48,951 bases of DNA from a bacterium (GTDB taxonomy: Bacteria; Pseudomonadota; Alphaproteobacteria; Rs-D84; CACZYB01), in contig JAAVBN010000036.1 in assembly GCA_014803545.1 (NCBI GenBank), forward strand, positions 1-48,951, written 5' to 3'. A program made the position numbers and the translations under genes. Below the pieces are notes generated by a model, which saw only the letters and a list, made by a program, of their open reading frames with translations, did no database searches and was not told the DNA's origin. Below, piece by piece: positions 18,952-47,265 of this stretch. Numbering within the stretch: position 1 is the first letter of the stretch; each line of letters starts with the position of its first letter.

Positions 18952-19939
18952 ATGATTAAACAAAGTAATAAAGTAGTCTTGGGGGGGGGTAATTCTATCA
19001 TTATTTATTTCCCTTAATACAGCAAATTCTAAAACTTCAAGAAGACGAAACGCAACTTCCACTCCTCAAAACTCAATAGCATCAAATACAGAAAATAAAT
19101 CAGAATCTCCATACGCAATGAATCCATCTATTGGTGGCAAAATTGTTAATTGTCCTATGGCAAACGCAGAATATACAAATGATATTTTCATTAAATATTC
19201 CGCAGGAAGAACTGTGTCTATCAAACTAGATGATAGCATCCCTCTTAATACTGTTATAGATAAAGAAAGACTAAAATATTTCAATGATTTATATAACAGT
19301 GATGTCTATTTTTACCTTTCAGGTGCAAATAAGTCCAATATTGGTTTTATAGAATGTAATGATACAATAGGCGTTTCTGCAAATGGTCAGGAAGTAGTTG
19401 CTCTTAATTACAATAATATTGATACATATTGTATAAAATCAAATGAATATGAAGATAATCTTGTAATACATACAGTGCCCTATGGTTATATAAAAGTTAT
19501 TGGTGGTAATAATGTATTTTGTAGTATGAATTCAGATAAACACCCTTCTATCCAATGGTCTACTCTTGATGTCCTTACTGATACTGTTAATAATTCTACT
19601 CAAATGAAAAAAATAAAAGAAGTCTGTGGTAATCTTGATGTAGATGAACTTGAAAAAGTATATAAAATGACCGTTGCATCTTCTGTGACTTCTGGTATAG
19701 GAACCGTTGGCTCTATTGCAAGCACTGTAACTTCTGCTATCTCAAACAATGAACAGAAAAAAGATGATTCCAATGATAAAAAAGTAAATGGACTAAACCT
19801 TGCAACTACAATATCTTCTGCCGTTGGTGGAGTTGCAAGTGGAGCGGGAACCGTGACCTCTGGTATAGCAGCAAGCAAGCTTAAAAAGATTATTAGTGAT
19901 ATTAAGGCTTGTAGAGATGCAATAAATAAACTTCAATAA
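18952..19939 (+). CDS. Secreted protein, frame broken by a G9 tract (phase-variable candidate, OFF as sequenced)
   Basis: The ATG at 18952 has a strong AAAGGA site and a promoter, but with nine G at 18981-18989 the frame stops after 21 codons. With eight G the frame continues to 19939, giving 328 residues beginning MIKQSNKVVLGGVILSLFIS, a clear signal peptide. The downstream part alone can start at the ATG at 19118, but that has no signal peptide and no ribosome-binding site. The mature protein has a Ser/Thr/Asn-rich linker, a roughly 130-residue soluble domain with several Cys (C8, C69, C88 and C123 counted from 19118), and two Gly/Ala/Ser/Thr-rich hydrophobic repeats (TSGIGTVGSIASTVTSAIS and SSAVGGVASGAGTVTSGIA) that could insert in a membrane. 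No known family. A one-base assembly error or transcriptional slippage would also explain the frame. Confidence 0.75.
18981..18989 (+). repeat. G9 homopolymer inside the coding start
   Basis: Nine G in the tenth to thirteenth codons of the 18952 gene. Loss of one G restores the full frame. GGG is a rare glycine codon in the neighbouring genes, so the run is unlikely to be neutral codon choice. Confidence 0.9.
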
Positions 19940-31957: not shown

Positions 31958-32033
31958 TGGCAGGGGCAGAAGGATTCGAACCCACGACCAACGGTTTTGG
32001 AGACCGCTACTCTACCAGCTGAGCTATACCCCT
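31958..32033 (-). tRNA. tRNA-Trp(CCA)
   Basis: 76 bases with encoded CCA. Acceptor AGGGGTA, D-arm GCTCAGCTGGTAGAGT, anticodon loop CTCCAAA (anticodon CCA), T-arm GTGGGTTCGAATCC. It opens the secE-nusG-rpl-rpo cluster. Directly after its 3' end, 31931-31957 can fold into a hairpin (ATAAACATAAGG with CCTTAGTTTA, one-base bulge), likely used in processing. Confidence 0.96.
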
Positions 32034-32085
32034 ATCTATTTGATTTTACGGAATATAGTAAAACTAGCTCTATATAAGTAGAAAG

Positions 32086-32115
32086 AGTCTACACCAAAAT
32101 CCCTTGTAAAATCAA
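32086..32115 (-). promoter_or_regulatory. Candidate promoter of the tRNA-Trp-secE-nusG-rpl-rpo cluster
   Basis: On the minus strand TTGATT (32115-32110) and TAGACT (32091-32086) are 18 bases apart, about 50 bases before tRNA-Trp. The rest of 32034-32217 is AT-rich with no other feature I can support. Confidence 0.45.
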
Positions 32116-32217
32116 GTATTTTTTTAAAGCCTCAATAATATACACAATTTTTTTTATAATTTCAATCAAAAAGTCTTAAAAAAGATTCATATTCTGCCAC
32201 TTTTACCTAAAAAAAGG

Positions 32218-32246
32218 TTGACTTTACCCCCCCCCCACCATAATAT
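32218..32246 (+). promoter_or_regulatory. Promoter with a C10 tract in the spacer (phase-variable candidate)
   Basis: TTGACT (32218-32223) is followed by TTA, ten C (32227-32236) and ACCA, then TAATAT (32241-32246) at 17-base spacing. An overlapping TATAAT (32244-32249) sits at 20 bases. Each gain or loss of a C shifts the -35/-10 spacing, the mechanism known from promoters such as hifA in Haemophilus. It drives the gene at 32281 and probably its neighbour. Confidence 0.65.
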
Positions 32247-32280
32247 AATATATAAAGATAAACAAAAAGAAGGTTTCGTT

Positions 32281-33225
32281 ATGAAAAAAAATATTGCCGA
32301 CAAAGAAGATGTTATAGATAATGCCGTTTCATTTATAAATAAATGGATAAGAGCATCTGACAAAGAAAACTATAAAATATGTATAAATGAACTTAAAGGC
32401 AATGACGGCAAATGGACCATATCATATTCATACAACGGCCTTATAGAACAATTAAAATCTATAATGGAACAAACTAAACAAGACGGACAAGATATATATG
32501 AACAATTCGCCTATGAATTAAATGAAACAAACTATCCAACCGAAATAAAAGAAAAACTTTTAGCCGAAATTAAAAATGATTTATTTTCAAAACCTTCTGA
32601 AAATAAAAAAGAACATAAAAACGAAAAAAAAGTAAAGGAAATAGAAGAAATAGAAAAAGCATTAGCTTCCTTAGGATTACCTAGCTACCTATTTGCTAAT
32701 GGACTATACGACTACGGAAATCAAAAAGAAATAAAGAAAAAACTTTCATCTCTTCCTTTTAATATGCAAAAAAAGATAATAAAAAATTATGACAATGTCC
32801 TAAACTACTTTGACAATCCATCAAAGAAATTATGTTTATACGCCATTAAAAATTACCGAACAAGTATATTGTCAATTCCCGAAGAATATAGAAACAACGA
32901 CCTTGATATTCAACTTGCCATAATTGAAAAGACATCTGACTTTTCAAAAAGAATAAAACTTCTTCCACAGGCAAGAAAGACCTTCATAAAAAAGTATCCA
33001 ACAAAGATTATAACAGAAATAACAAAGGAAAACTACAATCAAACAGATACTCTTACAATTTATGATTTAAACAAGGAAGAATTGGAAATCTATCAACAAT
33101 CACTTGAAAAATACTTTGTAAACAAAGTCAAAAATGACCCTACATCCATAAGGGAAATAAAAAATCCATCTCAACTTGTAAGGGAAACTGCCTTGACAGC
33201 ATTCAAGGAGCAATATATAAGATAA
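32281..33225 (+). CDS. Unknown protein, family B (tandem paralogue of 33248-33835)
   Basis: 314 residues from the ATG at 32281, which has AGAAGG nine bases before it. No signal peptide; strongly charged, helical. It shares with its neighbour an N-terminal helix block (NETNYPTEIKEKLLAEIKNDL against NTNYPMEIKQQLLNEIRKDL) and a C-terminal block (IITEITKENYNQTDTLTIYD against IITDITKENYRNKKELSIYD, then LNKEEL). Between them lies about 150 residues absent from the neighbour (YLFANGLYDYGNQ, LPFNMQKKIIKNYDNVLNYF), possibly a helical repeat. No domain recognised. Expression should depend on the C10 promoter. Confidence 0.75.
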   Translation: MKKNIADKEDVIDNAVSFINKWIRASDKENYKICINELKGNDGKWTISYSYNGLIEQLKSIMEQTKQDGQDIYEQFAYELNETNYPTEIKEKLLAEIKNDLFSKPSENKKEHKNEKKVKEIEEIEKALASLGLPSYLFANGLYDYGNQKEIKKKLSSLPFNMQKKIIKNYDNVLNYFDNPSKKLCLYAIKNYRTSILSIPEEYRNNDLDIQLAIIEKTSDFSKRIKLLPQARKTFIKKYPTKIITEITKENYNQTDTLTIYDLNKEELEIYQQSLEKYFVNKVKNDPTSIREIKNPSQLVRETALTAFKEQYIR

Positions 33226-33247: not shown

Positions 33248-33835
33248 ATGTTAAAAATTTTTATGACTAAAAAAAGAAAAGAAGAAATAAAACAAAAACG
33301 TAATAAAGCATATACTGAAATGTTCAAACTCTATATGCAAAATTTAATAGATGGTGATAAAGGCTGGAAATCCAGATATGATTACAACTATCTTTTAGAA
33401 GATATAAAAAAATATCTTGAAGGCTTTGAACAAGATACAATATCTTACGAAGATGTATATAAAATATTTATACTTGATGTCGCAAACACAAATTATCCAA
33501 TGGAAATAAAACAACAACTTTTAAATGAAATCAGAAAGGACTTATTTCCACCTGTTTCCGAAGACAAAGAAATACAAGCTGAAAAAACAAGCATTGAATA
33601 TATAATGGAATATCCTGAAAGAATTATAACAGATATAACAAAGGAAAATTATAGAAATAAAAAAGAACTTTCAATTTATGACCTAAACAAGGAAGAATTG
33701 AAAGCCTATAAAAAATCTATGGAAAATTTGATTAAAAAAGCTGAGAAAAATCTTAACTCCAAAAACGATTCTTCTGAACTTACAAAAGAAATCAAAATTT
33801 TAACATTTGAGGAATGGTTTAAGAATCAAAGATAA
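33248..33835 (+). CDS. Unknown protein, family B, short paralogue
   Basis: 195 residues with GAAAGGA before the ATG. It lies 22 bases after its longer paralogue, most likely in one operon. It keeps the N-terminal and C-terminal shared blocks but lacks the 150-residue middle part, so either it lost that part or the longer one gained it. Very Lys/Glu-rich (MLKIFMTKKRKEEIKQKRNK opening). No function is apparent; probably cytoplasmic. No terminator is visible before the aspS promoter. Confidence 0.72.
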   Translation: MLKIFMTKKRKEEIKQKRNKAYTEMFKLYMQNLIDGDKGWKSRYDYNYLLEDIKKYLEGFEQDTISYEDVYKIFILDVANTNYPMEIKQQLLNEIRKDLFPPVSEDKEIQAEKTSIEYIMEYPERIITDITKENYRNKKELSIYDLNKEELKAYKKSMENLIKKAEKNLNSKNDSSELTKEIKILTFEEWFKNQR

Positions 33836-33874: not shown

Positions 33875-33903
33875 TTGACTCTTATAGCAAAGTTTATTAT
33901 GAT
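33875..33903 (+). promoter_or_regulatory. aspS promoter
   Basis: TTGACT (33875-33880) and TATGAT (33898-33903), spacing 17, about 30 bases before the aspS start; AAAGAGG ribosome-binding site. Confidence 0.7.
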
Positions 33904-33932: not shown

Positions 33933-35714
33933 ATGGAAAATATATACAGAACAAACACCTGCGGTGATATTAACGAAAGTTTCATTGGTAAAAAAGTTCG
34001 CTTATCTGGTTGGATAAATTCAAAACGTGACCACGGCGGACTTGTCTTTATTGATTTACGCGACCATTACGGAATAACTCAATGTGTGATTGATACAACA
34101 CATCCTGACTTTCCAAAACTTGACCATCTAAGGATTGAAAGCGTCATTTCCGTATATGGTGAGATTGTAAAAAGAGATCAAGAAACCATAAATGAAAACT
34201 TACCATCTGGACACGTTGAACTTAAAATAGAAAGTTTTAACATAATTTCATCTGCCGATGTTCTTCCAATACTTGTTGCAACCGATGAACAATTCCCAGA
34301 GGATTTACGTTTGAAATACCGCTATATTGACTTAAGAAGGTCAAAACTTCAAAAAACAATAAAGCTACGTTCCCAAATAATAAAAACTATGCGTGATTAT
34401 ATGTGGGATAACGACTTCAACGAACTTCAAACTCCAATACTTACAGCCTCCTCACCAGAAGGTGCAAGAGATTTCTTAGTCCCATCAAGATTACACGCTG
34501 GAAAATTTTATGCTCTTCCACAAGCACCACAACAATTTAAACAACTTGCTATGGTTGCAGGATTTGATAAGTACTTCCAAGTTGCCCCTTGCTTCCGTGA
34601 TGAGGATTTAAGAGCAGATAGAGTTTTGGAATTTTATCAACTTGATATGGAAATGTCATTTGCAACACAAGAAGATGTTCTTTCAATCGCAAAGGGCTTA
34701 GTTGAAAAAACTTTCTCAAAATTCGCAAACGGAAGAAAAATTGCCGACTGGCAAACAATCCCTTATGCCGAAGCAATGGATAAATATGGTTCTGATAAAC
34801 CAGATTTAAGAAACCCTTTAATAATAAAGGATGTGACAGAAGCATTTAAGGATTCAACATTCACAATATTTGCAAACTCTATTGCAAAGGGTTCTGTTGT
34901 AAAGGCAATAGTTGCACCATCAAGCTCTGAAAAACCTCGTTCATGGTTTGACGGGCTTAACGAATGGGCAAGGGCTAACAAAGCTCATGGCCTAGGCTAT
35001 ATAGTTTTTGATAAGGAAAATGGCGAAGAAAAAGGTCCTATTGCAAAAAATCTTACAAAAGATAGAATAGATATGATAAAAGAAATTTGCGACATAAAAA
35101 ATGGGGACAGTGTGTTCTTTGTATGCGACAAATTATCTACTGCACAAAAATTTGCAGGACTTACAAGAACAAAGTTGGCAACCGATTTGGATTTAATTGA
35201 AAAAGATATATTCAAATTCGCCTTCATAGTTGACTTCCCATTTTATGAAATGGATGAAACCACAGGCAAACTTGACTTCGGACACAATCCATTTTCAATG
35301 CCACAAGGTGGTTTAGAAGCCTTAAAAAGCAACGACCTTTTATCAATAAAGGCATACCAATACGATATAGTATGCAACGGCTATGAAATGGCAAGTGGAG
35401 CTGTAAGAAACTACGATATTGAAACTATGGTAAAGGCTTTTGAAAATGTCGGCTATACAAGAGCTGATGTAGAAGAAAGATTTTCAGGATTAATTACCGC
35501 TTTCAAATACGGTGTTCCTCCACACGCTGGAATAGCATTGGGAATTGACCGAATAGTAATGCTTCTTGCAGATGAACCAAATCTTCGTGAAGTAATCCTA
35601 TTTCCAATAAACGGTCGTGGTGAAGATTTAATGATGGGCGCTCCATCCGTAATTGATGAAAAACAATTAAAAGAATTACATATAAAAGTGGAGCTACCTA
35701 AAAAACAACAGTGA
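33933..35714 (+). CDS. aspS: Aspartyl-tRNA synthetase
   Basis: 593 residues, the long bacterial type. It charges tRNA-Asp. N-terminal OB-fold anticodon domain ([20 protein letters not shown]), class II motif 2 with [11 protein letters not shown], the bacterial GAD insertion (about 280-420) and motif 3 ([13 protein letters not shown]). First gene of a likely operon with the membrane protein, radC and perhaps RNase J. Confidence 0.97.
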
Positions 35715-46946: not shown

Positions 46947-47265
46947 CTAACCAGCTCTATTTTCCAACATATTCTTCATACCGTTAAGCATCTGCTGAGC
47001 ATCATCATCACTCATAAACGGCAAAGCTTTCTTTACATCAGAAATTGTAAGCTTATTTGCACGCGAAATATTATCTTCAATAAAGTTTTGAATCTTCATA
47101 TCTTCTTGTTTTGTATATGCGAACGCACCAGATGATATTATTGTTGTGGAAAGTAAAAATAAGCAAACACCTATTTTTAAACCTGATAAAATCTTGGATT
47201 TTTTACTATTTGAAACAGGGAACTTAATTACCCCCCCCCATAGGGACTTTGTCTAATTTACTCAT
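46947..47265 (-). CDS. Small secreted protein, frame broken by a G9 tract (phase-variable candidate, OFF as sequenced)
   Basis: The ATG at 47265 has an AAGGAG site and a promoter. As sequenced, the frame meets a stop after 13 codons because of nine G (coding strand; C9 at 47231-47239). With eight G the frame runs to the TAG at 46947, giving 105 residues: an N-terminal MSKLDKVPMGGVIKF, a hydrophobic signal segment (IGVCLFLLSTTIISSGAFA, cleavage after AFA), then a small acidic helical mature part with KQEDMKIQNFIEDN and SDDDAQQMLNGMKNM. No known family. It is co-oriented with nothing and divergent from the barrel gene at 47401. The layout copies that of the 18952 gene. A sequencing slip is the alternative. 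Confidence 0.7.
47231..47239 (-). repeat. G9 homopolymer (C9 on the plus strand)
   Basis: Nine C, read as G9 in the coding strand, right after the ninth codon of the 47265 gene. Loss of one restores the frame. Confidence 0.9.

Follow-up and report, generated by a model that had tools for sequence, protein, structure and literature searches.

A run of ten C residues lies between the predicted −35 and −10 boxes of orfA, and we consider it rather probable that this site is a promoter-spacer contingency locus, in which a slip-prone C tract in a sigma70-type promoter of the two genes orfA and orfB would grade their transcription. The locus was found in a 48,951-nt stretch of DNA, analyzed whole and called here the window, from an alphaproteobacterial genome (G000; 1.06 Mb, 39 contigs, 96% complete). 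The host, apparently uncultured, is probably alphaproteobacterial by its RpoB as well, whose closest solved structure is the chain of entry 7ye1, a Caulobacter RNA polymerase. It would be one of several promoter-spacer tracts in a set of about 45 C/G tracts in that genome.

The C10 tract and the predicted promoter of orfA

The features of the locus are the following.

32218..32223, + strand: −35 hexamer TTGACT of the predicted orfA promoter, a 5/6 consensus match, kept in the sister species G005
32227..32236, + strand: C10 tract within the promoter spacer, TTTA directly 5′, read from the sequence
32239..32244, + strand: −10 candidate CATAAT, spacer 15 bp, 5/6 match
32241..32246, + strand: −10 candidate TAATAT, spacer 17 bp, 4/6 match
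32244..32249, + strand: −10 candidate TATAAT, perfect match, spacer 20 bp at C10 and 17 bp at C7
32266..32273, + strand: ribosome binding site AAAGAAGG, 7 nt 5′ of the ATG, read from the sequence

The block is laid out as TTGACT, TTA, C10, and ACC, followed by the overlapping CATAAT, TAATAT, and TATAAT, and the predicted promoter reads TTGACT-TTA-C10-ACCATAATATAAT, with a ribosome site and ATG downstream; AAGAAGG (AAGG at 32270-32273) stands 7 nt upstream of the orfA start ATG at 32281. The sequence-only reading that drew attention to this site had reported TTGACT, the C10 tract, TAATAT at a spacing of 17, and TATAAT at 20, and all of these coordinates and spacings are correct. Its two −10 candidates are likewise right, but it overlooked CATAAT at a spacing of 15. 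No other C or G run in the window is as long, and just two more reach at least 8, a G9 at 18981-18989 and a C9 at 47231-47239. The C10 tract lies outside orfA, 44 bp 5′ of an ATG with a ribosome site, and so does not have the form of a coding contingency locus. As at the Neisseria genes fetA and porA, the homopolymer instead falls between the predicted −35 and −10 boxes, and its ten bases exceed the length of ∼8 G/C taken as slip-prone.

In the mechanism that we propose, a sigma70-type promoter with a C-tract spacer would drive the accessory unit orfA-orfB, and slipped-strand changes in tract length would shift the distance from TTGACT to CATAAT, TAATAT, and TATAAT. At C10 the perfect TATAAT sits at 20 and the 4/6 TAATAT at 17, with no good box well placed, which should give weak to moderate expression; contraction to C7-C8 would put TATAAT at 17-18 and give strong expression. 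Loss of one to three C would then raise transcription stepwise. The C10 form would be near the weakest state because its best promoter score is 10.7, against 14.6 at C7 (C8 13.5, C9 12.0, C11 11.1, C12 12.4), scores from an approximate matrix of E. coli hexamer frequencies and spacer weights that are to be read qualitatively only. The sequence and its geometry are seen directly, and we infer slippage at the C10 tract, use of the predicted boxes, and graded expression.

Genes and surroundings

The tract and its genes are set between a tRNA gene and aspS.

31958..32033, − strand: tRNA-Trp gene, divergent, bounding the intergenic region upstream
32281..33225, + strand: orfA, a predicted ORF of 314 aa with no assigned function
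33248..33835, + strand: orfB, 195 aa, a shortened tandem paralogue of orfA
33875..33903, + strand: aspS promoter TTGACT-N17-TATGAT, separate from that of orfA
33933-35714, + strand: aspS, downstream of orfA-orfB

The downstream genes had been described as tandem paralogues without known function, and this is confirmed: both the N-terminal and the C-terminal part of orfA have a match in orfB (identity 33-44%, E about 1e-13), and neither product received a functionally named hit in Pfam, PHROGs, NCBIfam, or PADLOC. The searches did return one weak DUF4116-like stretch, to be taken as a lead only, with a Pfam E of 0.07 and, across about 43 residues, an E of 1e-4 to phrog_5925, a family likewise without a known function. 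AlphaFold2, run on the single sequence, gave a poor model (mean pLDDT 50.5). The same description had called the pair a two-gene operon. The tandem arrangement holds, and the 22-nt gap between the genes makes the pair a candidate operon.

At the equivalent place, G005 has an orthologue of orfA (68%) and G002 a homologue (32%). orfB is absent from G005, in which aspS starts about 100 bp past orfA, and in G001 and G003 tRNA-Trp adjoins aspS directly, without orfA or orfB. Taken with the separate aspS promoter, this pattern of presence and absence indicates that orfA-orfB is an accessory, lineage-specific insertion between tRNA-Trp and aspS with its own predicted promoter. We also note an inverted pair in front of tRNA-Trp, where window positions 32034-32135 (minus strand) contain TTGATTTTAC and the inverted copy GTAAAATCAA; the pair is present in G000, G001, G003, and G005, with a variant in G002. 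Between the tRNA-Trp end and the orfA −35, 191 of 197 positions are identical in G000 and G005.

The orthologous promoter in a sister species

G005 is a metagenome-assembled genome of a sister species, with the locus on JAAVBO010000013.1, and it supplies the single orthologue that has the promoter. There the promoter reads TTGACTTTACCCCACCCCCACCATAATATAAT: 31 of the 32 positions of the −35 to −10 block are identical to G000, the −35 and −10 boxes are unchanged, and the spacer is equal in length, with the tract interrupted as C4-A-C5. The 5′ UTR below the −10 differs at 6 of 31 positions, and orfA itself has diverged by 26% at the DNA level. Because the 5′ UTR below the −10 diverges, the promoter block itself appears to be what is conserved, which supports a real promoter. 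The interrupted tract of G005 should slip less, and its equal length and C4-A-C5 interruption suggest that in this species the spacer is probably held rather than switched. The upstream sequence of G002 differs from that of G000 and G005, so either state of the tract, intact or interrupted, may be ancestral.

Promoter-spacer tracts elsewhere

We searched for the same geometry under a strict C-oriented definition (TTGAC[AT] close before the tract, TATNAT at a 15-20 bp spacer, and a ribosome site with ATG). G000 contains two such matches, against 0.003 expected from flank shuffling; the second, at L061:1431, is also C10 and has its −10 at a spacing of 20. Three tracts in the mirror, G-oriented form were found against 0.001 expected, and G009, of the sister genus represented by G008 and G009, has six promoter-spacer tracts against 0.005 expected. 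The G-oriented tracts of G000 are given below.

L049:7710, L056:1976, and L056:2723: TTGACA-N9/10-G9-TAAAAT

By a looser definition, about 30 of the 80 tracts in the sister genus lie in promoter spacers of 15-20 bp. Their commonest recognizable class is the G-strand form, in which TTGACA is followed, mostly after 6 to 10 bp, by G9 and then by TAAAAT, TAAGTT, or TAAACT, with an ATG and ribosome site at many. The tract-in-promoter arrangement is not due to chance, and its recurrence across the clade is directly visible. Promoter spacings in G005 show an excess at 17 bp (31 against a background of about 10; weaker in G000), and because they peak there, the tract-bearing spacers of G008 and G009 appear to be mostly off the optimum. 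The earlier proposal that tract changes would move the unit between strong and weak promoter states accordingly has geometry, predicted sensitivity, the 17-bp preference, and recurrence on its side, but the G005 spacer, of the same length and interrupted, speaks against it.

Tracts also occur in other positions around promoters. Some in G000 precede a −35 box by about 15-22 bp and others lie in hairpin leaders. A C tract with the near-identical flank TTGAATTTACAGGTGTTTTA stands ahead of other promoters (TTGNNN-N17-TATTAT), 15 bp from their −35, with lengths of 8-10, at L042, L060, and L041 in G000 and at L072 and L076 in G005. In a family of hairpin repeats the C tract forms the loop, for example GTCCATCCCCCTTA-C9-TAGGGGGATGGAC, and some copies lie inside a short leader ORF; the copies (L032:4451, L037:4846, L038:4470, L044:4694, L045:55, L050:4559, L057:8335, and L059:77) have tract lengths of 9 or 10 in G000. 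At L117:2048-2109 of G008, two TTGACA promoters stand back to back, apparently serving divergent genes, and in both a G9 abuts the −10 on its upstream side.

A genome-wide class of tracts

Genome-wide, G000 has 45 C/G runs of at least 8, with a peak at exactly 9. The counts of C runs are 546 for C4, 110 for C5, 6 for C6, 0 for C7, 4 for C8, 31 for C9, 9 for C10, and 1 for C11, where those from C8 upward cover the whole genome and those for C4-C7 come from 348 kb fetched around the C8+ runs, about a third of it; no C/G run of 7 occurs in the 348 kb read. Because C6 and C7 number 6 and 0 and C9 numbers 31, the long runs form a class of their own rather than the end of a declining distribution. 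All lengths are consensus values of a draft, probably short-read, assembly. In G008 and G009 the length is nearly always 9.

The class also has a fixed context. TTA directly precedes the tract in 42/45 cases in G000, 24/25 in G005, 37/55 in G008, and 18/25 in G009, compared with 2-4% of C4/C5 runs. This flank holds at coding starts, in both promoter-spacer orientations, upstream of promoters, and in hairpins; on the G strand it yields a TAA just after G9 in coding starts and the beginning of the −10 in promoters. We surveyed 385 alphaproteobacterial genomes, few of them from the family to which the window belongs. TTAC9 occurred 39 times in G000, 11 times in G275, and 0-6 times in each of the others, and a reversed control pattern was rare in all 385. 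TTAC8 sites number 24 in G005, 39 in G008, and 18 in G009, and 0-1 in G001-G004, which belong to the same genus as G000. The fixed length and fixed TTA context of the class exceed what plain slippage explains.

Length changes between species are observed directly at tracts other than that of orfA. With flanks aligned, tract lengths in G000/G005 are 8/9, 9/8, 8/10, 11/9, and 10/9, and 9/9 at three loci, so that length differs at 5 of 8 well-aligned loci in what is a between-species comparison and not population data. At the two places checked, L061 and 47231, G005 lacks the tract-bearing gene in the corresponding position, as expected for accessory genes.

Coding-start tracts

The C10 tract had been counted as the third contingency locus of the window, and the count is fair, since the window's two other tracts lie at the 5′ ends of ORFs.

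18981..18989, + strand: G9 tract at the 5′ end of an ORF; a 328-aa ORF opens at one base shorter
47231..47239, − strand: G9 (C9 on the + strand) at the 5′ end of an ORF; 105 aa at one base shorter

Across G000, 14 poly-G tracts, the window's two included, come immediately after a start codon provided with a ribosome site; many, these two among them, belong to ORFs for predicted exported proteins. Beyond each tract one frame holds a long ORF of 93 to 691 codons. This ORF is out of frame at the assembled length at 11/14 loci in G000 and 13/14 in G005. We also observed a predicted exported-protein family with the common N-terminal pattern M..GGG[K/V]xxVxSxxY, encoded by G9-TAAA..TGTAAA[A/T]TCA. 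Its members are L031, L035, L039, L043, L049, L050, L051, and L057 in G000 and L069, L073, L078, L082, and L084-L086 in G005, most of them not in frame at the tract length of the assembly. We know of no such pattern, GGG[K/V]xxVxSxxY, in the poly-G systems of Campylobacter or Neisseria.

Alternative explanations

The conservation seen in G005 would also fit an ordinary, non-switching promoter whose spacer is C-rich by descent, whose 17/20 length is held by selection, and whose working −10 is TAATAT; the intact C10 would then come from one A-to-C change, or the interruption would have arisen in G005. We regard this as possible but on the unlikely side. Spacer length and boxes are identical in G005 despite the 26% divergence of orfA DNA, and the tract there is interrupted. 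Against it stand the sharply distinct tract class of the genome (peaking at 9, with no run of 7 in the sequence read), the TTTA-C run form that the C10 tract shares with other tracts, and the recurrence of the geometry at L061 and, in mirror form, at L049 and L056. It is far less probable that the tract acts in translation, in which case a TTG at 32218 would be the start, reading in frame across the tract to orfA, and tract changes would shift the frame. That frame is open from 32218 across the tract in both G000 and G005, but AGG abuts the TTG and no usable ribosome site precedes it, in contrast to the ATG at 32281 with its AAGAAGG at 7 nt, and the intervening codons differ between the species by amino-acid changes (P/H, Y/C, E/K). 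We rejected the TTG as a translational start because it lacks a ribosome site. A homopolymer artifact of assembly or sequencing has the least credence of all: the assembly is a metagenome-type draft and several tracts lie near contig ends, but the tracts recur at orthologous places and in fixed contexts in independently assembled genomes.

The uniformity of the class raises the question of what the tract is. TTA-C9 could be a recognized DNA element, either a protein site or the target of a length-changing or copying process, with plain slippage secondary, a reading that we judge improbable. The TTA frequencies in G000 and G005 (42/45 and 24/25 against 2-4% for C4/C5) in such unlike settings, the near-constant length of 9 in G008 and G009, and the concentration of the motif in few of the lineages among the 385 genomes all point that way. 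On the other hand, the settings each offer a partial local reason for the flank (a TAA stop after G9, a TAAAAT −10 after G9), lengths differ between orthologues, some tracts derive from one ancestral repeat and so are not independent, and the factor invoked is a putative one. A broader proposal, which we hold to be doubtful, is that TTA-C9 (G9-TAA) is a defined switch element that an alphaproteobacterial family keeps at exactly nine bases and employs within promoter spacers, at coding starts, in upstream regions, and in the hairpins of leaders, perhaps with a factor of its own for binding or length tuning; the orfA locus would be one instance of it.

Comparison with known systems

Read as a promoter-spacer contingency locus, the orfA site is closest in design to fetA (frpB) of Neisseria gonorrhoeae, which has a poly-C tract between its −10 and −35 and phase-varies through the promoter spacer (Carson et al. 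2000, as cited in PMC5320596), with tracts of C10-C14 in natural strains (PMC5320596). In both, the poly-C lies between −35 and −10, and at orfA its length is expected to alter spacing and transcription strength. Unlike fetA, orfA is in an alphaproteobacterial host and is not a known surface receptor, its spacer leads into three −10 candidates that overlap, and its tract is interrupted in the sister species. Neisseria porA likewise has a homopolymer, poly-G, in the −35/−10 spacer and graded expression (van der Ende et al. 1995, as cited in PMC5320596). The position of the homopolymer and the graded expression, predicted here, are shared with orfA, whereas poly-G replaces poly-C, and porA is more closely approached by the G9-TAAAAT promoters of G008 and G009 than by the orfA locus. 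In the meningococcus, tracts of 8 or more are mostly variable (PMC5084427). The poly-G coding loci of Campylobacter and Neisseria resemble the window's other two tracts and about 14 genes of G000, with a G tract just past the start codon and a long intact ORF out of frame; they differ from the orfA promoter tract in that their mechanism is translational.

A limited literature search found no reports of tract contingency loci or promoter-spacer switching in Alphaproteobacteria. The orfA locus would be one more example of a known mechanism, and the wider tract class, with its fixed length and fixed TTA context brought to light genome-wide, is the more interesting finding. Homopolymer promoter-spacer switching, best known from Neisseria, apparently recurs many times in these small-genome alphaproteobacteria.
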